From a virus, in the IMG/VR virus record IMGVR_UViG_3300017763_000162, positions 1 to 25,749 of that record: DNA of 25,749 nucleotides, one strand, 5' to 3'. The translations under genes were made by a program, and so were the position numbers. How positions within the stretch are numbered: the stretch's first letter is position 1; each line of letters starts with the position of its first letter. The notes under the pieces were generated by a model. That model did not search any database. It saw only the letters and a list, made by a program, of their open reading frames with translations, and was not told the DNA's origin. Shown piece by piece: positions 77 to 15,115 of the stretch.

Positions 77-3000
77 ATGGCTCTACAGCACCTGCGTTCT
101 GGCACAGCAAATAAGCGTCCTATTCCAACCGCAATGTCGGATGGGCAGCTTGCTGTTAACACTAATTTGGCTAGTCCTGGTCTGTTCTTTAAGGACAGCA
201 ACGGTGATCTAGTTAAAGCAGGTCCGGTTCATGTTGGAACGACTGCGCCAAATGCTTCGCCAGCTAGTACGGCTGCAACGGCGTTAGTTGCTAATACTGT
301 TTATCAGATCCTGACGGTTGGAACGTCAGATTTTACAGCTGTTGGGGCGTCTGCAAATACGGTCGGCGTTGTCTTTACTGCAACTGGCACAACAACTGGC
401 ACAGGCACGGTTAGTGGTCAGCAAGGAGTTGAGAAAGGAGAGCAGTGGCTAGATACGACAAATAGCCTTTATGTAATGAAGGTGTATGACGGGACGGGTT
501 GGCGCGTAACTGATTCTATTTCGTTGGCGAATGGTAGTGCTGCCGCACCAAGTTTGCACTTTGGGAGTGATACGAATACTGGATTGTTTAGAAGTGCAGC
601 AGATTCGTTAGCGATCACGACTGCTGGAACGCAGCGCGTTGTTGTTGGGGCAGCCGGAGGTGTGGGCATTGGGGTGGTTCCACCTAGTTATGGCACTGGC
701 AGAAATTCGCTAGACATCCATTCGTCAGGGGCAACAGTAACTCACTTAGGACTAACTAACAGCACTACTGGCAGCAATGGTGCGTCTAACGGTTTTAACA
801 TCATTCAAAACGGTTTGAATACGTTGCTGTATTTAAGAGAAAGTGGCTTTATGTCATTTTCTACAGCGAATACCGAGCGCCTAAGAATCGACAGCTCTGG
901 ACGGTTGGGTCTGGGCACGTCAAGCCCTGGAGCAGGCATACATATCGCTACGGCAGGTCAAACAACATCTGCATTAAATACTGCAGGAGACATCAATCTT
1001 CTTGTTTCAGATACAGGTGCAAGCGCAGGGAATGGAGGCTCAGTTGTATTTGGTTTTAATAGTGGTAGTGGCAGATTTGCGGCGATTAAAGGACAAGTTG
1101 CTACAGGTGGCGGTAACAGCATTGGCGATCTAGCCTTTAGCACTAGAAACGCAACGAGTGACGCCACTCTTACTGAGCGTCTACGCATTTTAAGTAATGG
1201 AAATATTGGAATTGGCACTTCGTCGCCTTCACAGTTGCTAACTGTTGCAGGCGTGGCACGCTTTGAAAACTTTATTGAATTTGCCGGGTCGATCTCAACA
1301 CCAGGCACAGCAGCAGCTATCTATCGCCCTGCTGATAACAATCTTGCATTTAGTACGGCGAGCAGCGAGCGTATGAGAATCGACAGCTCGGGCAGGGTTG
1401 GGATTGGAACTACTTCGCCTGAGGAGATTTTACACATTGCAGCAGCAAGTGAAACAGTAGGTAGTCGAGATGGTGTGATTCTCCAATCAACATCAAGTGC
1501 TGCTGCTGATACGGGATTACCTCTTGTATTTACAGCTGACATCGGAGGTGGATTTACAAGCTATGGATTAGCGTCTATTGCTGGACGAAAAGAAACTGGA
1601 ACCGTTAACGGTTCAGACGCTGCTGGTTATTTACAGTTTGCAACCGGAAGCACTGGAGGCAGTATCAGCGAAAAGATGCGAATCGACAGCTCGGGCAATC
1701 TCTTGGTTGGCCTTACGACAGCCGTTGGGATAGGAGGAACGCCTGCTGACCTTAACAGTGTTGAAATTGGCAGAGGCTTTCTTAACATTAGTCGTGATGA
1801 TACAGTGGCTGCTGATCATATTTTATTTGGGAAGAATGGAAGCATTGCCAGCTCTATTGGTACGAGTACAACTAACTCTCTAGTTTTTAAGACAGGTACA
1901 GCCGAGAAAATGCGAATCGACAGCTCGGGCAGGGTTTTAATAAATGAAACAGCGGCTGCAACTTCAGATTCGTATTTAACAGTAAAAAATGCGTCTGCTC
2001 ATTGTGAAGTAAATATAATGTCAGGCCCTTCCCATGGAAGTGTTATAAACATGGGAGATACTGGTGATTATAATATTGGTCGAATTAAATACGACAACAG
2101 CACTAACTCTTTTCAGTTTCAGACTGATAACGCCGAGCGCTTACGAATCGACAGCTCGGGCAACGTATTTATCGGCGGCACAACTGCAAGCTCTGCAGAT
2201 ATTGCGCTGAATGCAAATGGCAGGGTTGAATCCGGCTTTAATGACAACACAACAGAAGGAGTCAGACTTGACCCTGCCGGAATAGTTAACATCCGTAGAG
2301 ATTCAGGAACTAGTACCGCTATTGGTGTTTTCTCCGGTGGTGTTGCTAGTGCTAGCACTCAGACGGTCGAAATCAAAGCAAACGGCAGCATCACTGCGGC
2401 TGGTAATATCGTCACTGGTAATGATCCAGGTGTTGCTGGCAGACCTGCTGGAATACGTGCTGGGTTCAACGGCACACTGCAAATTGCCAAAGCCTCTGGA
2501 GAACAGGGTGTTGTTATTTACAAAACAGGTACTGATTCAGCTCAAATAGAACTTAAGACGGACGGATCCGCCACATTTGCGAGTTCAGTTAATTTGGCTC
2601 TTCTGAGAGTTGTTGCCAGCGGTACTACTTATCCAAGAATTATTGGAACACCTGACGGCACGTTATATTCGGAATCCTCCGCAGGAGTATATCCGTGGCA
2701 ATTGTTTCCATCAGGAGCCGCCACATTTGCTGCAGACGCATCCATCAACTCGCTAACAATTGGTCGTGGTGCGGGTAATGTTAACGGTAATTCGGCGTTT
2801 GGATATCAAGCACTTAATTCAAACACCACTGGCTATAACAACGTAGCTAACGGATATCAAGCACTTAATTTAAATACCACTGGCAGTAACAATGTAGCTA
2901 CCGGACTCAGAGCACTTTATTCCAACACAACCGCCGCCGACAATGTAGCTAGCGGATACGAAGCTCTCCGTAATAACACCACTGGATACAGCAACGTAGC

Positions 3001-4666
3001 TACCGGACGAGAAGCTCTCCGCAATAACACCACTGGTTTTAACAATGTAGCTGTTGGACCAAATACCCTAAAAAGCAACACTACTGCTGCTTATAACACA
3101 GCTATTGGAAGTTCATCTCTCCAATCTAACACTACTGGGACTGGTAACACAGCCAATGGTTTACAAGCTTTATATTCAAATACCACTGCTAGTTATAACG
3201 TAGCGGTTGGATACCAAGCCCTGCGTTCAAATACTACTGGTGCTAGCAACGTAGCTAGTGGTTATACAACTCTTTATGCCAATACAACTGGTAATTACAA
3301 CACAGCTTACGGGCATCAAAGTATGCGTTTTAACACCACTGGTACTAACAACGTAGCTAACGGATACGCAGCTCTCTATAACAACACCACTGGTAATTAC
3401 AACGTAGCTACCGGATATGAAGCTCTTAAATCCGTCACCACTGGAATTGAAAATACAGGCTTAGGAACATTTGCGCTTAAGCTCAACACTGGCAATAGCA
3501 ACACAGCCGTTGGGTACCAAAGCCTTGCACAAAACACTACTGCTACTAACAATACAGCCGTTGGTACTTATTCTCTTTATACTAATTCCACTGGCGGCAA
3601 CAACGTAGCTACCGGATATGGTGCTCTACAAAGCAACACCACTGGTAGTAGCAACGTAGCTAATGGATATTATGCCCTTAATTCAAACACCACTGGACAT
3701 AGCAACTTAGCTATCGGAGCCTCAGCTCTCCAGAGCAATACAACTGGAGTTAACAACATATCAAGTGGGAGTAGCTCTCTATATAACAACACTACTGGCT
3801 CAAATAACATAGCCTACGGAAATACTGCTCTTTTAAGCAACACCACAGGCCAACAAAATGTAGCCATTAGTAATGACGCTCTTCGTTCCAACACCACTGG
3901 TAATTACAACATAGCGATTGGCCTTACTGCGTTAAATGCCAACACCACAGCAAGCAACAACGTTGCTATTGGAAGGCTTGCTGGTCGTTTAAACACTACT
4001 GGTTCTAGCAACACTGCTGTCGGAAGTGAAGCTCTCTATTACACCACCACTGGTTCTAATAACGTAGCTATCGGAAGACAAGCTCTCTTTGAAAACTCCA
4101 CTGGTGCGGAAAGTACGGCTAGTGGATATAAGGCCCTTTATTTTAATACCACCGGAGGATCAAACGTTGCTTTTGGTGCTTATGCTCTTTACAATTGTTC
4201 GACTGGTAGTGGCAACATTGGTATTGGAGCTAAAACAAGCTCTAACATTTTTTCACCAGTATTTAACGTAACAACAGAAAGCAACCGCCTAGTCTTAGGC
4301 CATACATCTATCACCAATGCCTACGTCAAAGTATCTTGGACCGTTACATCAGACGAGCGCGATAAGATGAACTTTGCTCCAGTACCTTATGGTCTGGACT
4401 TTGTTAATCAACTCAAACCGACTGCCTATCAATTCAAGGTAGATCGTGACACTGAAGAGCCAAACGGTGATGTACGTTATGGCTTCAAAGCGCAAGACAT
4501 CCTTGCCTTAGAAGGTGACAACCCCGTCATTATTGACACCGAAGATGCTGACCACCTTAAGTACAAAGGTGAGCATCTTGTTCCTGTACTGGTTAATGCA
4601 GTACAAGAGTTGACGGCTATGGTTAAGGAGCTGCAAGATGAGGTCGCTGCGCTGAAGAGCGCGTAG
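77..4666 (+). CDS. giant tail fibre with S74 intramolecular chaperone domain
   Basis: This 1529-residue virion fibre is a probable receptor-binding protein. The N-terminus (MALQHLRSGTANKRP, then SDGQLAVNTN) resembles, from memory, a virion-attachment module common in marine cyanophage fibres. Residues ~80-115 are a Gly/Thr-rich segment. Residues ~150-890 are beta-rich modules punctuated by (E)RLRIDSSGxxxxG repeats. Residues ~895-1385 hold 28 near-perfect 17-residue units of the type NVATGYxALxSNTTGxx, reminiscent of YadA-like trimeric heads. The C-terminus is a Peptidase_S74/endosialidase-type chaperone: S1425-D1426-E-R begins the domain at base 4349, YGFKAQDI follows, and a terminal coiled coil (AVQELTAMVKELQDEVAALK) closes it. 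In this family the chaperone trimerises the fibre and cleaves itself off before the conserved Ser; cleavage here is inferred. The ATG at 77 has AGG at 66-68 as a weak ribosome site. Confidence 0.93.
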   Translation: MALQHLRSGTANKRPIPTAMSDGQLAVNTNLASPGLFFKDSNGDLVKAGPVHVGTTAPNASPASTAATALVANTVYQILTVGTSDFTAVGASANTVGVVFTATGTTTGTGTVSGQQGVEKGEQWLDTTNSLYVMKVYDGTGWRVTDSISLANGSAAAPSLHFGSDTNTGLFRSAADSLAITTAGTQRVVVGAAGGVGIGVVPPSYGTGRNSLDIHSSGATVTHLGLTNSTTGSNGASNGFNIIQNGLNTLLYLRESGFMSFSTANTERLRIDSSGRLGLGTSSPGAGIHIATAGQTTSALNTAGDINLLVSDTGASAGNGGSVVFGFNSGSGRFAAIKGQVATGGGNSIGDLAFSTRNATSDATLTERLRILSNGNIGIGTSSPSQLLTVAGVARFENFIEFAGSISTPGTAAAIYRPADNNLAFSTASSERMRIDSSGRVGIGTTSPEEILHIAAASETVGSRDGVILQSTSSAAADTGLPLVFTADIGGGFTSYGLASIAGRKETGTVNGSDAAGYLQFATGSTGGSISEKMRIDSSGNLLVGLTTAVGIGGTPADLNSVEIGRGFLNISRDDTVAADHILFGKNGSIASSIGTSTTNSLVFKTGTAEKMRIDSSGRVLINETAAATSDSYLTVKNASAHCEVNIMSGPSHGSVINMGDTGDYNIGRIKYDNSTNSFQFQTDNAERLRIDSSGNVFIGGTTASSADIALNANGRVESGFNDNTTEGVRLDPAGIVNIRRDSGTSTAIGVFSGGVASASTQTVEIKANGSITAAGNIVTGNDPGVAGRPAGIRAGFNGTLQIAKASGEQGVVIYKTGTDSAQIELKTDGSATFASSVNLALLRVVASGTTYPRIIGTPDGTLYSESSAGVYPWQLFPSGAATFAADASINSLTIGRGAGNVNGNSAFGYQALNSNTTGYNNVANGYQALNLNTTGSNNVATGLRALYSNTTAADNVASGYEALRNNTTGYSNVATGREALRNNTTGFNNVAVGPNTLKSNTTAAYNTAIGSSSLQSNTTGTGNTANGLQALYSNTTASYNVAVGYQALRSNTTGASNVASGYTTLYANTTGNYNTAYGHQSMRFNTTGTNNVANGYAALYNNTTGNYNVATGYEALKSVTTGIENTGLGTFALKLNTGNSNTAVGYQSLAQNTTATNNTAVGTYSLYTNSTGGNNVATGYGALQSNTTGSSNVANGYYALNSNTTGHSNLAIGASALQSNTTGVNNISSGSSSLYNNTTGSNNIAYGNTALLSNTTGQQNVAISNDALRSNTTGNYNIAIGLTALNANTTASNNVAIGRLAGRLNTTGSSNTAVGSEALYYTTTGSNNVAIGRQALFENSTGAESTASGYKALYFNTTGGSNVAFGAYALYNCSTGSGNIGIGAKTSSNIFSPVFNVTTESNRLVLGHTSITNAYVKVSWTVTSDERDKMNFAPVPYGLDFVNQLKPTAYQFKVDRDTEEPNGDVRYGFKAQDILALEGDNPVIIDTEDADHLKYKGEHLVPVLVNAVQELTAMVKELQDEVAALKSA
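885..2162 (+). repeat. dispersed direct repeat coding for RIDSSG within the tail fibre
   Basis: An 18-mer, GAATCGACAGCTCGGGCA, is exact at 1377-1394, 1680-1697, 1914-1931 and 2145-2162, with a variant copy at 885-902. Each copy encodes RIDSSG and follows a (E/A)(R/K)(L/M)R stretch. The sequence between copies is strongly diverged, so the copies mark module boundaries. Identical use of AGC-TCG for the two serines suggests recent exchange between copies rather than protein-level conservation alone. Confidence 0.8.
2775..4230 (+). repeat. 51-bp / 17-residue tandem array in the tail fibre (about 28 units)
   Basis: Consecutive units start 51 nt apart (for example AAC at 2840, AAT at 2891, AAT at 2942). 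The unit consensus is N-(V/T/I)-A-x-G-Y-x-A-L-x-x-N-T-T-G-x-x. I count 28 units; one is a residue short (NTGLGTFALKLNTGNS). The (N)TTG core and the glycine at unit position 5 hardly vary, while the residues after them do. This suits a trimeric left-handed beta-roll in which variable positions sit on the surface. Confidence 0.9.
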
Positions 4667-11592: not shown

Positions 11593-11848
11593 GAAGACTT
11601 GCTCCTGAAAACTCTGTGAACACTGATGCCACAAGGCTTTCAGCCTGATGACGCCCCAGCAAATTGCCACAACGCTTGCGAACTCTAACAACAGCTCTGT
11701 TGTAATCATCAGGCGTAATGTTGAAGCTTGTTTGTGAATTGGTGAGAAGCTCGCGAATCAGTTCTGACCGCTTAACGCCAATACTTTCTGCTTGTTCAGA
11801 AAGACGTTTGGCGATGTCTTCCGGGAGGTAGGTTTCGACTCTTTTCAT
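11576..11848 (-). CDS. ribbon-helix-helix (CopG/Arc-like) DNA-binding protein
   Basis: This 90-residue protein begins MKRVETYLPEDIAKRLSEQA, then IGVKRSELIRELL: a beta-strand followed by two helices, the classic ribbon-helix-helix DNA-binding fold. The C-terminal half (DYNRAVVRVRKRCGNLLGRH) is helical and may be an oligomerisation part. Such small proteins usually act as dimeric autorepressors or as antitoxins; no toxin is recognisable next to it. A short inverted sequence, CCGTGATTTTACGG at 11850-11863, touches its start codon and could be its own operator. The upstream Lys-rich gene overlaps it by 53 bp. Confidence 0.7.
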   Translation of the reverse strand: MKRVETYLPEDIAKRLSEQAESIGVKRSELIRELLTNSQTSFNITPDDYNRAVVRVRKRCGNLLGRHQAESLVASVFTEFSGASLRAAKN

Positions 11849-12077
11849 TCCGTGATTTTACGGGTTTCTTTTTGGGTTTCTTGGATTTGTTGGACGATTT
11901 AACTCTTGGTTTGGAGCGTACTAGAGCAACGGTTTCAAGGTAGCCCGGAGGATTAGGGATGCCAGCGTTGCTAAGGATTTCGCTCCAATTCACAAAAGTG
12001 CTCTCGCGCGTATAGATGCCGTATATGTCCCAACCGTGCCAAAAGCCAGTAATAGCAATTAAAGAGGGTTGGGACAA
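11796..12077 (-). CDS. small protein with basic Lys-rich tail, downstream of the helicase
   Basis: The frame is open from a TTG at 12131, but that start overlaps the helicase gene by 41 bp. I prefer the TTG at 12077 (93 aa, MSQPSLIAITGFWHGWDIYG), 13 bp after the helicase stop; no ATG is available. The core (YTRESTFVNWSEILSNAGIP then NPPGYLETVALVR) resembles, from memory, a small cyanobacterial/cyanophage family with GHWHGWxIYG. The tail is strongly basic (KSSNKSKKPKKKPVKSR) and could bind nucleic acid. Its first part lies over the repeat cluster at 12026-12230. Confidence 0.6.
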   Translation of the reverse strand: MSQPSLIAITGFWHGWDIYGIYTRESTFVNWSEILSNAGIPNPPGYLETVALVRSKPRVKSSNKSKKPKKKPVKSRNEKSRNLPPGRHRQTSF

Positions 12078-12230
12078 GGGGTTGGGACAGCTAGATATGT
12101 CCCAGGTCTTCCGCTCCAATATCAATCTCAACAGAACCCTCTAAAAGGGTGGGACAAGTAAGCGATGTCTCAGGCTGTTGTCCCAGGGTAGAACCCGCTC
12201 CAGCACAAGAAAGTCCTATTGGTTGGGACA
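12026..12230. repeat. cluster of TGGGACA/TGTCCCA repeats, candidate iteron origin
   Basis: Seven copies in 205 bp. TGGGACA lies at 12070-12076, 12083-12089, 12150-12156 and 12224-12230. TGTCCCA lies at 12026-12032, 12098-12104 and 12179-12185. Four extend to the 10-mer GGTTGGGACA (12067-12076, 12080-12089, 12221-12230, and inverted at 12026-12035). By hand I find about five isolated copies of the 7-mer and none of the 10-mer in the other 25.5 kb. The copies span the 3' end of the prim-pol/helicase gene and the start of the next, and fall in different strands and frames (VSQP, LGQQ, CPT, LGH), so they are not a protein repeat. Confidence 0.75.
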
Positions 12231-14349
12231 CTTCTTTTATCTCTCCACGCGCAAGAACAGCCTTATAACTCTTGGTTTGAGAGTTTGCTGGGACGGAAGA
12301 GACTACGAGCCCTTTCTTTTCAAGCCTTTGGAGCGTTTTGCGAATAGCGTCATTTGAGCCTTTGATCAAAGAGTCGTAGAAAAGTTCTTCCCTGGTGCGT
12401 GTCTCTGGGTGACAGGCACGAAGGCGTTGCAAGACTCGATCAACAACAGAAGCAGGCGAGCTGCCGCTGTTTCCCCCTGTTGGAACGAAATCTCTGATGC
12501 TGAAGGAAAGATCTTCTTCCATACGCATTTCGAGCTGAGTGCCTGAGCGCCCTGAGCGAGACTTCTCAACGGTTATAAGGCGGCTATTAGGGCCGACAAG
12601 GCGTTTCTCTTCATCTGTCGGCTTCTTCAGTGCCCAAGTCTCGTCAACAGCGTCACGAATGGCTGTAGTGCCTCTGAAGCCTCCATTCTTGTTTGCGTGA
12701 TGAATGATCAGAATTGTCGAAGGAGGGAACAGCTCTTTGCCTTCCTTGTTCTTGACCCCATTGTTTCGAGTAAGCCAGTAGAGAGGAGATGCAAAATCTG
12801 ACTTGTTTTCATCGAAGGCTTTGCCTCCACTACAGCCAATCAAAGAATCAATGATCACTAGGGTCGGTTTTACTTCCTGCATCAGTATTTGGAACTGAGC
12901 ATAATTTTGCAGCTGCCAGTCAGTCTGAATAATTGTGTTTTCATCCATTGGATAATCAATTTCTTCTAACTGCTCTTTGATCTGCATCAATGGCTGGTCT
13001 CCATTCAAGATGAGGACTTTGCCCTGTTTGACTGGGACGTGAGCACCACGAACCTCAAAAGACTCTCCCGTAACAATTTTCTTAGCTATAGCCCAAGCTG
13101 ACATTGACTTACCGTCGCCACCTGCCCCGTAGACAAGGACAACAGAAGGATGAGGTAAAACATCTGGGATAATGTAATCGCGCTTGTAATCAGTTTCTTT
13201 TAATTCTGCTGCTGTCATTTTTTTAGTGTCAAGGATAAAGGCTTGATGATCGACCCACATTTTTTCTAAGGCCATGCCATCTCTGAAGCCGCAGCTAAGA
13301 GCAAGCTGATGCAATTTGAACTGCACTTCAGCTGGATTTTTAAGCTGAAAAATTATGGCAAGGTCTTCCATACACTTCTCGTAAGTAGTTCTTGAGTCTT
13401 TGAACTCTTGAATTACTTTGTCTTCTGCTTTTTTGACAGCTTGGGCCAAGTCGTCTGAGAACCTGAGCCGTTTGGGATCCTCGATGTCAGCTAAATGGAT
13501 CAATGTCCCAATGCCTACGCCATTGCCCTTGAAAGTGTTCCAAGCGTCAGCACAAGGGTTGGAGTCTTCCCATTCAGAGGCGTAATCAGGATCTTCTGCG
13601 GACCATGCTGACCAAAGCATGAAGCCCATTTCATTAGGCAAAGCAGAATTAATTGCCATACCAATTCTGACCCAGTGGTCTCTAGAGCCAGCGCCTTTAC
13701 ATGGGATAACGCCTAAGCAGTCACGAATGATCTCAAAAATTTCGTCTTGAGTGCGATCAGTAAAATCTAGATCGCGTTTGTTGATTGTTTTTGGCGATTG
13801 CTTCATCTCAGCAAGCAACCAATCTGGAGCGACAGGAATACTGGAAAGATCACCAGAGAATTTGTACTGACCAGGCTCTGAGTTTTTGCCGCCAGGGTAT
13901 TCACCAAAAATTACGCCTTGACGTTTGGAGCTCCAAAGGATCTCGTAGTCAGGGCAGTCCTTAGTCCGACCATGTCCGCTTACTTGATTCCAGAGGTCTT
14001 CTGGTACGCGAAAAAGGTATTTGGCTGCATTGCTCCTAGTTGATGTGACTGTTGGAGCGCCTTCAAGGGAGGAGCCCCAGACCTTGAGATGCTTTTTTAA
14101 GCCAAGGTCAACGTCAAGGATGACGATGCCATTGCCGCGAATACCAGTAAAAACGCCTACGGCTTTAAGGTCTGGATTCCGCTGAATAGCCAAGGCAGTA
14201 TCGGCAGCATCAAGCTTGCGATCAAAGCTTTCCTGCGTGGGGTTTTTGCCGCCTGCAAGCTTGCCTGAGGGCATTTGTGCCCCTTTGCGGTATATCGGCG
14301 CATACACCAATCCAGCTGGAAGTGACTGGACAAAGTCAAGAAGTTTCAT
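12091..14349 (-). CDS. bifunctional DNA primase-polymerase / RepA-like helicase
   Basis: This is the phage replication protein. I chose the ATG at 14349 (752 aa, MKLLDFVQSLPAGLVYAPIY); the frame is open to 14472, but that extension looks non-coding. N-terminal ~1-180: prim-pol domain with the metal-binding pair in VILDVDLG (D79, D81). ~200-290: PriCT-2-type domain (IIRDCLGVIPCKGAGSRDHW, ending GIGTLIHLAD). ~400-580: RecA-like helicase of the RepA/AAA_25 type with Walker A GAGGDGKS at 408-415, Walker B LVIID at 497-501 and a sensor-like IIHHANK. C-terminal ~630-690: winged-helix-like (RTREELFYDSLIKGSNDAIR). It would prime and unwind phage DNA. No good ribosome site is seen. The gene's end carries the TGGGACA repeats. 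Confidence 0.9.
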   Translation of the reverse strand: MKLLDFVQSLPAGLVYAPIYRKGAQMPSGKLAGGKNPTQESFDRKLDAADTALAIQRNPDLKAVGVFTGIRGNGIVILDVDLGLKKHLKVWGSSLEGAPTVTSTRSNAAKYLFRVPEDLWNQVSGHGRTKDCPDYEILWSSKRQGVIFGEYPGGKNSEPGQYKFSGDLSSIPVAPDWLLAEMKQSPKTINKRDLDFTDRTQDEIFEIIRDCLGVIPCKGAGSRDHWVRIGMAINSALPNEMGFMLWSAWSAEDPDYASEWEDSNPCADAWNTFKGNGVGIGTLIHLADIEDPKRLRFSDDLAQAVKKAEDKVIQEFKDSRTTYEKCMEDLAIIFQLKNPAEVQFKLHQLALSCGFRDGMALEKMWVDHQAFILDTKKMTAAELKETDYKRDYIIPDVLPHPSVVLVYGAGGDGKSMSAWAIAKKIVTGESFEVRGAHVPVKQGKVLILNGDQPLMQIKEQLEEIDYPMDENTIIQTDWQLQNYAQFQILMQEVKPTLVIIDSLIGCSGGKAFDENKSDFASPLYWLTRNNGVKNKEGKELFPPSTILIIHHANKNGGFRGTTAIRDAVDETWALKKPTDEEKRLVGPNSRLITVEKSRSGRSGTQLEMRMEEDLSFSIRDFVPTGGNSGSSPASVVDRVLQRLRACHPETRTREELFYDSLIKGSNDAIRKTLQRLEKKGLVVSSVPANSQTKSYKAVLARGEIKEVSQPIGLSCAGAGSTLGQQPETSLTCPTLLEGSVEIDIGAEDLGHI

Positions 14350-14379
14350 GTAGAGTGTCAATTGAACAGATAAACATCT

Positions 14380-14413
14380 CCGGTCAGCTAGCGGTAGTTG
14401 GCCGGATTTTTTT
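14380..14413 (+). terminator. terminator-like hairpin between divergent helicase and SSB genes
   Basis: CCGGTCAGC at 14380-14388 pairs with GTTGGCCGG at 14397-14405 (9 bp, two G-U pairs, 8-nt loop), followed by A and T7. It works only on the plus strand, where it lies before the SSB-like gene rather than after a plus-strand gene. It may be an attenuator in the SSB leader or stop transcription running antisense through the helicase gene. Confidence 0.7.
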
Positions 14414-14503
14414 ATCTTAGCCCATATTGACAAGGGGCAGCAATGTCTGTAGTTTGTTGGGGCGTCAGGCAACTGACCGAAATTCCAAACAACACATTTT
14501 CCC

Positions 14504-15115
14504 GTGAAAATTTCAGACGATTTCGTTTCAGCTTTTCAATCAGAGCCAGAAAATTCTTCTTCTTCAGCAACAGATTACTTTCGGCCAAAGACCGTAGAAC
14601 CTGGTAAGCCAGCGGTTTTTGCTTTACTTGAAGAAGATCCATGTGAGTGGTACTTGGTTTGGGGCACACCAGTCGCAGGTGGCAATAATAAGCCTTTCCG
14701 TTTTTTGGAAAAGCCAAGCGATGAAGACATTGAGTTGGAGCTTGGCAAGGCTTTTACCCGTGCTTTGAACTATGAAAAGACAGATACCGACAAGATTTAC
14801 AAGTGCTTGACGTTCCCAATTTTTAACTGGGAGTTGGGCGCTGTTCAGGTTTTTGAAATTCCACAGATTTCAATTGCAAAGCAGTTTTACACCTATGGGA
14901 CTGAAAAAGCTTATAGGAATAAATTGCTTGATTATGATTTCAAGCTTGAAAAAGAAATTACAGGTGGCAAGACTAAGTACAACTTGCGTGTTATCCCTCG
15001 TGACGAAGAGGAGCATGACGATCTGGTCATGCAGAAGGAATGGAAGCGTGTCCAAAAAGCAGGTTTTGATTTAAACCGGCTTTTGACTGATGGCAATCCG
15101 TTTAGCGAGGGTTGA
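14504..15115 (+). CDS. ssDNA-binding-like protein (gp32/OB-fold type)
   Basis: This 203-residue protein starts with GTG. The pattern KPFRFLEKPSDED, then KCLTFPIFNWELGAVQVFEI and PQISIAKQFYTYG, then YDFKLEKEITGGKTKYNLRV, matches my memory of phage single-strand-binding proteins (xFxVWNYxxxxVQVLEITQxSI...YDIxIxRxGxxxxTxYxVxP). Residues 1-25 are disordered and Ser-rich. Family members coat ssDNA in replication and recombination. The gene lies divergent from the helicase and in line with a recombination-type exonuclease. The leader (CCAAACAACACATTTTCCC) has no Shine-Dalgarno sequence. The assignment rests on pattern memory. Confidence 0.65.
   Translation: MKISDDFVSAFQSEPENSSSSATDYFRPKTVEPGKPAVFALLEEDPCEWYLVWGTPVAGGNNKPFRFLEKPSDEDIELELGKAFTRALNYEKTDTDKIYKCLTFPIFNWELGAVQVFEIPQISIAKQFYTYGTEKAYRNKLLDYDFKLEKEITGGKTKYNLRVIPRDEEEHDDLVMQKEWKRVQKAGFDLNRLLTDGNPFSEG

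Follow-up and report, generated by a model that had tools for sequence, protein, structure and literature searches.

The SaPI/PICI pri-rep-ori system (PMC6092414, PMC7581432) features short iterons that immediately follow the 3' end of the gene for a primase-linked initiator helicase, the VapE-like Rep (PDB 7pds), with two sets of iterons arranged around a center. The C-terminal domain of SaPI Rep is reported to recognize the iteron origin directly downstream of the rep gene (PMC7581432), and the words of these elements are lineage-specific. In phage lambda, the iterons of ori-lambda are contained in the initiator gene O (PMC7466680), and because of this placement the binding domain and its sites travel together. 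The O protein is not a helicase but recruits a loader and the host helicase, and its origin occupies the middle of the gene, with an AT-rich region beside the iterons. The NrS-1 phage polymerase, a PrimPol-helicase (PMC8775771), unites primase/polymerase and ring-helicase parts in a single phage protein and recognizes an 8-nucleotide priming sequence via its N-terminal part (Y261).

The locus described here lies in a window of 25,749 bp that comprises the entire linear IMG/VR record IMGVR_UViG_3300017763_000162, probably a fragment. It shares with the SaPI/PICI system the short iterons directly 3' of a primase-linked helicase, the two sets of sites around a center, the lineage-specific words, and a helicase C-terminal domain that probably reads them. 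In contrast to the VapE/D5/DUF927-type AAA+ Rep, the helicase of this phage combines an AAA_25 domain (RecA type) with PriCT_2; its array overlaps the coding region and shows no AT-rich center such as is found in PICI origins. Satellites carry no structural genes of their own, whereas this record contains terminase, portal, and tail protein genes (family matches) and is therefore not a satellite. As in lambda, iterons lie within the initiator gene (five of the eight sites), the precedent named in the preliminary description; unlike in lambda, the sites are located at the 3' end in a mirror arrangement, an AT-rich region is absent within the array, and the protein is itself an AAA_25 ATPase and the likely reader. 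NrS-1 resembles the phage in the union of both activities in one protein, but covariation points here to the C-terminal winged helix, and no PDB sequence match connects the window protein to NrS-1.

Within annotated phage and plasmid collections, the helicase is closest to helicases of cyanobacterial plasmids (AAA family, CyRepA1, DUF3987) and to the RecA-family ATPase of cyanophage S-CBS4, at 24 to 30% identity, which makes a marine cyanobacterium the likely host. A comparable strong array is absent 3' of the nine homologous genes tested, two of which (L178 and L179) show weak TGTTAG repeats only. A literature search for the iteron word itself matched only unrelated papers among the 40 listed. 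On the best reading, the phage array would function in the manner of SaPI/PICI rep-ori and lambda O-ori, although its helicase belongs to an unrelated class.

Gene neighborhood

The primase-helicase (Table 1) is listed from the first TTG, and its true start may lie closer to the conserved YMKLLDFV motif at residue 41. The protein is composed of a primase-like N terminus (PHROG DNA primase), PriCT_2 (residues 249 to 328), the RecA-type ATPase AAA_25 (residues 418 to 597), and a predicted C-terminal winged helix. The 97-bp gap between its stop codon and the gene of a 65-aa basic protein holds sites 1 to 3, with sites 4 to 8 contained in the last codons of the helicase. The 65-aa protein begins with VNWSEILSNAGIPNPPGYLETVA, has a lysine-rich tail, and immediately follows the array in every relative compared; it has no PHROG match.

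A 203-aa protein of no assigned function (14504-15115, +) is encoded divergently from the helicase gene and shows an abrupt allele difference, with 99% identity in L005 and ∼47% in the other relatives compared. The 1529-aa tail protein (77-4666, +) contains many short NTTGxxNVAxGYxAL-type repeats in its middle and ends in an SDERDK-type (chaperone-like) C-terminal domain (family matches).

Table 1. Coordinates of the iterons and neighboring features in the window
Feature	Position	Strand	Remarks
RHH (CopG-like) protein, 90 aa	11576..11848	-	comes after the 65-aa protein
65-aa basic protein	11796..11993	-	GTG start at 11993; neighbor of the array
Candidate specificity cassette (helicase residues 611-793 plus array)	12026..12642	.	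block of divergence between L008 type and L014 type
Iteron 1	12026..12032	-	TGGGACA on -; leftmost, intergenic
Iteron 2	12070..12076	+	intergenic
Iteron 3	12083..12089	+	intergenic, immediately past the helicase stop codon
Primase-helicase gene	12091..14472	-	793 aa as listed
Iteron 4	12098..12104	-	helicase CDS, encodes LGH
Iteron 5	12150..12156	+	helicase CDS
Iteron 6	12166..12172	-	degenerate TGAGACA (TGTCTCA on +)
Iteron 7	12179..12185	-	helicase CDS
Iteron 8	12224..12230	+	rightmost, helicase CDS
Predicted winged-helix domain	12259..12447	-	residues about 676-738
Codon of R711	12340..12342	-	candidate specificity residue

Architecture of the array

The preliminary description reported seven TGGGACA/TGTCCCA copies in 205 bp, far above chance, with about five scattered copies elsewhere, and recounting agrees in each respect. 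Seven exact copies (iterons 1 to 5, 7, and 8) stand against 0.024 expected in 205 bp (P for at least seven, ∼1e-15), and five more are found in the rest of the window. The total of 12 compares with a mean of 3.2 in shuffled sequences, none of which reached 12. The extended 10-mer GGTTGGGACA, which covers iteron 1 at 12026-12035, occurs in four exact copies, all inside the cluster as described and none elsewhere in the 25.7-kb record.

An eighth, degenerate site (iteron 6) had been overlooked. At its position most relatives carry TGGGACA or the word of their own lineage, and most of those at ∼70% protein identity have an exact site. Counting in this site reveals a mirror-symmetric array with the orientations - + + - / + - - + and spacings of about 44, 13, 15, 52, 16, 13, and 45. 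Mirror symmetry at ±1 bp was found in 0 of 15,274 random placements of eight sites. Neither the array nor its close surroundings contain a strongly AT-rich 50-bp block. A G-quadruplex was considered and dropped as a matter of judgement, as the invariant part is TGTC/GACA with an orientation fixed by position.

Conservation and lineage-specific words

An alignment-based scan yielded 80 viral loci, and the 8-site layout persists in most of those having an intact 3' end; overall, a majority of about 60 viral relatives share it. Relatives at ∼70% protein identity agree in all eight positions and orientations and usually have eight exact sites. The word takes at least five lineage-specific forms (TGTCCCA, TGTCCCC, TGTCCAG, TGTCGCA, and TGTC(C/T)CC, those of several relatives being assigned from arrays containing decayed sites) and consists of a constant TGTC followed by three variable bases, which change jointly across the array. 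The expectation that the repeats persist while codons drift holds among the TGTCCCA-type relatives, with 34 of 35 core bases in the coding tail invariant, compared to 75 of 137 other bases (p=3e-7). The gap shows the same in these relatives, with 21 of 21 core bases invariant versus 55 of 73 others (p=0.006). Neither an even spread of copies nor a loss of the repeats in relatives, both named beforehand as evidence against an origin, is seen: a single array per record is found in all nine relatives examined, and the eight positions are kept with another word substituted. The disappearance of TGGGACA from L014, L017, and L020 was rejected as a refutation on the same ground, the sites being retained with a new word.

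Most sites overlap codons, as would be the case if chance, protein repeats, or low complexity had produced the array. This explanation is barely conceivable and is counted as already refuted: only 0.02 copies are expected, the words change jointly in relatives, and the copies occupy several frames and both strands and reach into noncoding DNA, which bears out the earlier argument against protein repeats.

Two functional halves are suggested by L355 and L358, where the central gap of 52 bp is reduced to 21 and 9 bp, respectively, but both half-arrays remain largely intact. The helicase gene continues beyond the array in four relatives (L354, L358, L365, and L371), so what fixes the place of the array is where the winged-helix coding region ends, not the stop codon.

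Probable recognition of the word by the helicase

The helicases of L008 (TGTCCCA) and L014 (TGTCCCC) are 93 to 98% identical over residues 40 to 350 and 78 to 91% identical over residues 350 to 600. Upstream of residue 611, the DNA of the two shows 70 to 100% identity except for two 60-bp blocks; from residue 611 through the outermost site it falls to 32 to 65%, followed by a return to ∼90% immediately beyond. Elsewhere the two relatives are mostly 75 to 98% alike. L012 and L017 show an identity drop and recovery of the same kind. Because identity falls across exactly both elements in these pairs, the part of the helicase after the ATPase and the array form one cassette. Between the window and the L008/L014 types, positions 13240-13440 (helicase residues about 350 to 410) show 42 to 55% DNA identity with well-conserved flanks, suggesting that a second segment, separating PriCT_2 from AAA_25, has been exchanged.

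Of the C-terminal columns tested, residue 711 alone predicts base 7 of the word without error (34 of 34 nonredundant sequences): arginine occurs with A (17 sequences), lysine with C (13), and histidine or glutamine with G (4). The runner-up column is wrong in four of the 34 sequences; columns were also ranked by mutual information. In a tree of the C-terminal domain, lysine with C is found in two separate clades and histidine or glutamine with G in a third; the covariation rests on about three independent changes among phylogenetically related sequences.

Residue 711 is contained in the recognition helix (residues 707 to 719), the third helix of the predicted winged helix. A first AF2 model from 13 close sequences was poor (pLDDT 45), while a broader alignment led to a model with a mean pLDDT of 77 and ∼90 in the recognition helix. 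Foldseek relates the winged helix to MarR/ArsR-type DNA-binding domains (best E value 0.007, probability 1.00), with superpositions often at 1.5 to 2 Å over about 64 residues, and the weak Pfam and PDB profile matches of the C-terminal domain are mostly to winged-helix regulators. As one part of the overall explanation given below, R711 of this helix probably helps to read the last base of the word.

The RHH protein is 83 to 94% identical across relatives (86 to 90% in TGTCCCC types) and the 65-aa protein 86 to 91%, whatever the word; since neither changes with the word, these proteins are not its readers. The preliminary description had left the binder open between the helicase and a partner. 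Cassette and residue 711 favor the C-terminal winged helix of the helicase, and the missing covariation speaks against the RHH protein. Binding of the helicase to the sites is strongly supported, as far as comparative sequence evidence can indicate it.

RHH proteins commonly bind repeated short operators, and sites 1 to 3 lie directly upstream of the 65-aa/RHH operon, so that the array could be the operator or promoter of this operon, bound by the RHH protein for autoregulation. That is quite unlikely, as the helicase C terminus tracks the word while the RHH protein does not, the majority of sites lie inside the helicase gene, and comparable arrays are found 3' of VapE helicases; a sigma-70-like promoter was not found at the array, though this is a weak test. 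Heptad-sized sites in both orientations adjoining an RHH gene also recall a centromere-like partition site to which the RHH protein would bind, in the manner of ParG/omega-type heptad repeats. Here the word follows the helicase and not the RHH protein, arrays of the same kind lie 3' of other helicases in unrelated elements, and no ParA-like partner was recognized among the window proteins scanned, which leaves a partition site very improbable. Operator and ParG/omega-type parS were both rejected for the lack of covariation between word and RHH protein.

Proposed origin function

There is a high probability that the array serves the phage as its replication origin, located in the 3' end of its own initiator gene, with the winged helix of the helicase binding the eight TGTCCCA iterons and R711 helping in the reading of the last base. 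The earlier proposal that the prim-pol/helicase gene ends in an iteron origin gains support from an array that is conserved, single, and tracks the helicase; from the sequences we infer origin function, and with it physical binding, ring loading, a melting site, and initiation in vivo. In the proposed mechanism, the C-terminal winged helix of the primase-AAA_25 helicase would bind the eight iterons, and each mirror half-array of four sites would collect one helicase assembly, the two in opposite orientations. Two self-loaded, opposed rings would then unwind the DNA bidirectionally, and the N-terminal primase part would prime both forks. As in iteron origins in general, copies of a short word form a cluster beside the initiator gene, the only such cluster in the record, with covariation serving as a proxy for recognition of the word by the initiator; an adjacent AT-rich unwinding element is not found within or close to the array. 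Cumulative GC skew, put forward earlier as a check, shows no turn at the array, but this test is uninformative.

In iteron plasmids, initiators are known to autoregulate at their iterons. The helicase C terminus could likewise bind the array as a control site for autoregulation, incompatibility, or copy number while replication starts elsewhere, a reading that is equally compatible with all the binding evidence and would suit an array without an AT-rich element. It is nevertheless unlikely, given that characterized PICI origins have a like placement 3' of the helicase and a like mirror layout, that the promoter of the helicase gene is not nearby, and that a second array was not found in the records of nine relatives (possibly fragments).

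The plan of an initiator helicase with its origin at the 3' end has been known mainly from satellites; an origin at this site would add a RecA-type primase-helicase, one that belongs to a phage with its own structural genes. The origins of most environmental phages are unknown; the candidate here is readable from sequence because dozens of genomes provide natural variants of the binding domain, its sites, and a candidate specificity residue. The family thereby offers natural helicase-origin pairs that differ in specificity and lend themselves to work on helicase loading and replicon compatibility. Mirror TGTC arrays 3' of replicative helicase genes may also serve as an annotation rule for origins of metagenomic viruses.

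Arrays beside other helicases

A survey of IMG/VR loci not selected by word shows 3' arrays at many genes for VapE-like helicases (close to the solved chain 7pds) and none at others, with words such as TGTCCCA, TGTCACC, TGTCCAA, TGTACCC, and TGTCCAC. The lineage words at the VapE 3' ends of L093-L172 mostly start with TGT and also include TGTGGCA and TGTCCCG; this range of words could be searched for another recognition code. GGTTGGGACA occurs twice within 30 bp in 66 viral stretches, compared to 5 for a control word of reversed order; roughly a third of the 66 belong to this phage family, and some of the rest are VapE-like. In Aeromicrobium (L025/L194), GGTTGGGACA also follows the 3' end of a DnaB_N-AAA_25 helicase gene. 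Profile comparison found no homology between the C-terminal domain of the window protein and VapE C termini, and the TGTC-type words of unrelated helicases are for this reason left as probable convergence, as a working assumption.

The evidence as a whole leans toward a swappable "lock and key" cassette in this marine phage family that would be exchanged as a unit, comprising a mirror origin of eight sites together with the portion of a RecA-type primase-helicase that comes after the ATPase, whose codons the origin partly overlaps. Residue 711 (R, K, or H/Q) would determine the base (A, C, or G) with which the iteron ends, and the unrelated VapE and DnaB_N-AAA_25 helicases would have reached the same TGTC-type words and 3' position.

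Three types of replicative helicase have mirror arrays of GGTTGGGACA beside them, in phages, prophages, and other elements from several bacterial phyla (L025-L087, L182-L300). In a Synechococcus single-cell genome contig, AG-679-A04 (L215:3190-5776), a GGTTGGGACA array is located at the 3' end of a VapE-type helicase gene. Rhodobacterales show recurring GGTTGGGACA layouts (18-11-74-101-46-20-21; e.g., L189, L200, and L261). Some clusters fetched by word alone were set aside as other things, being located beside integrase genes (L032 and L084) or consisting of regular tandem repeats in coding frames (L198 and L258).

A second overrepresented motif

TGGAGCG is strongly overrepresented in the window, with 18 copies compared to about 3 expected, and in relatives of 36 to 43 kb (G001, G002, G003, and G005), with 30 to 42 copies versus 0 to 4 for the reversed word. 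The copies show a strand bias of about 2-3 to 1 and occur in several frames, also antisense to genes. TGGAACG (23 copies) and TGGTGCG (19 copies) are enriched as well, and the motif may be TGGNRCG. Several copies of this type interleave with the iterons.
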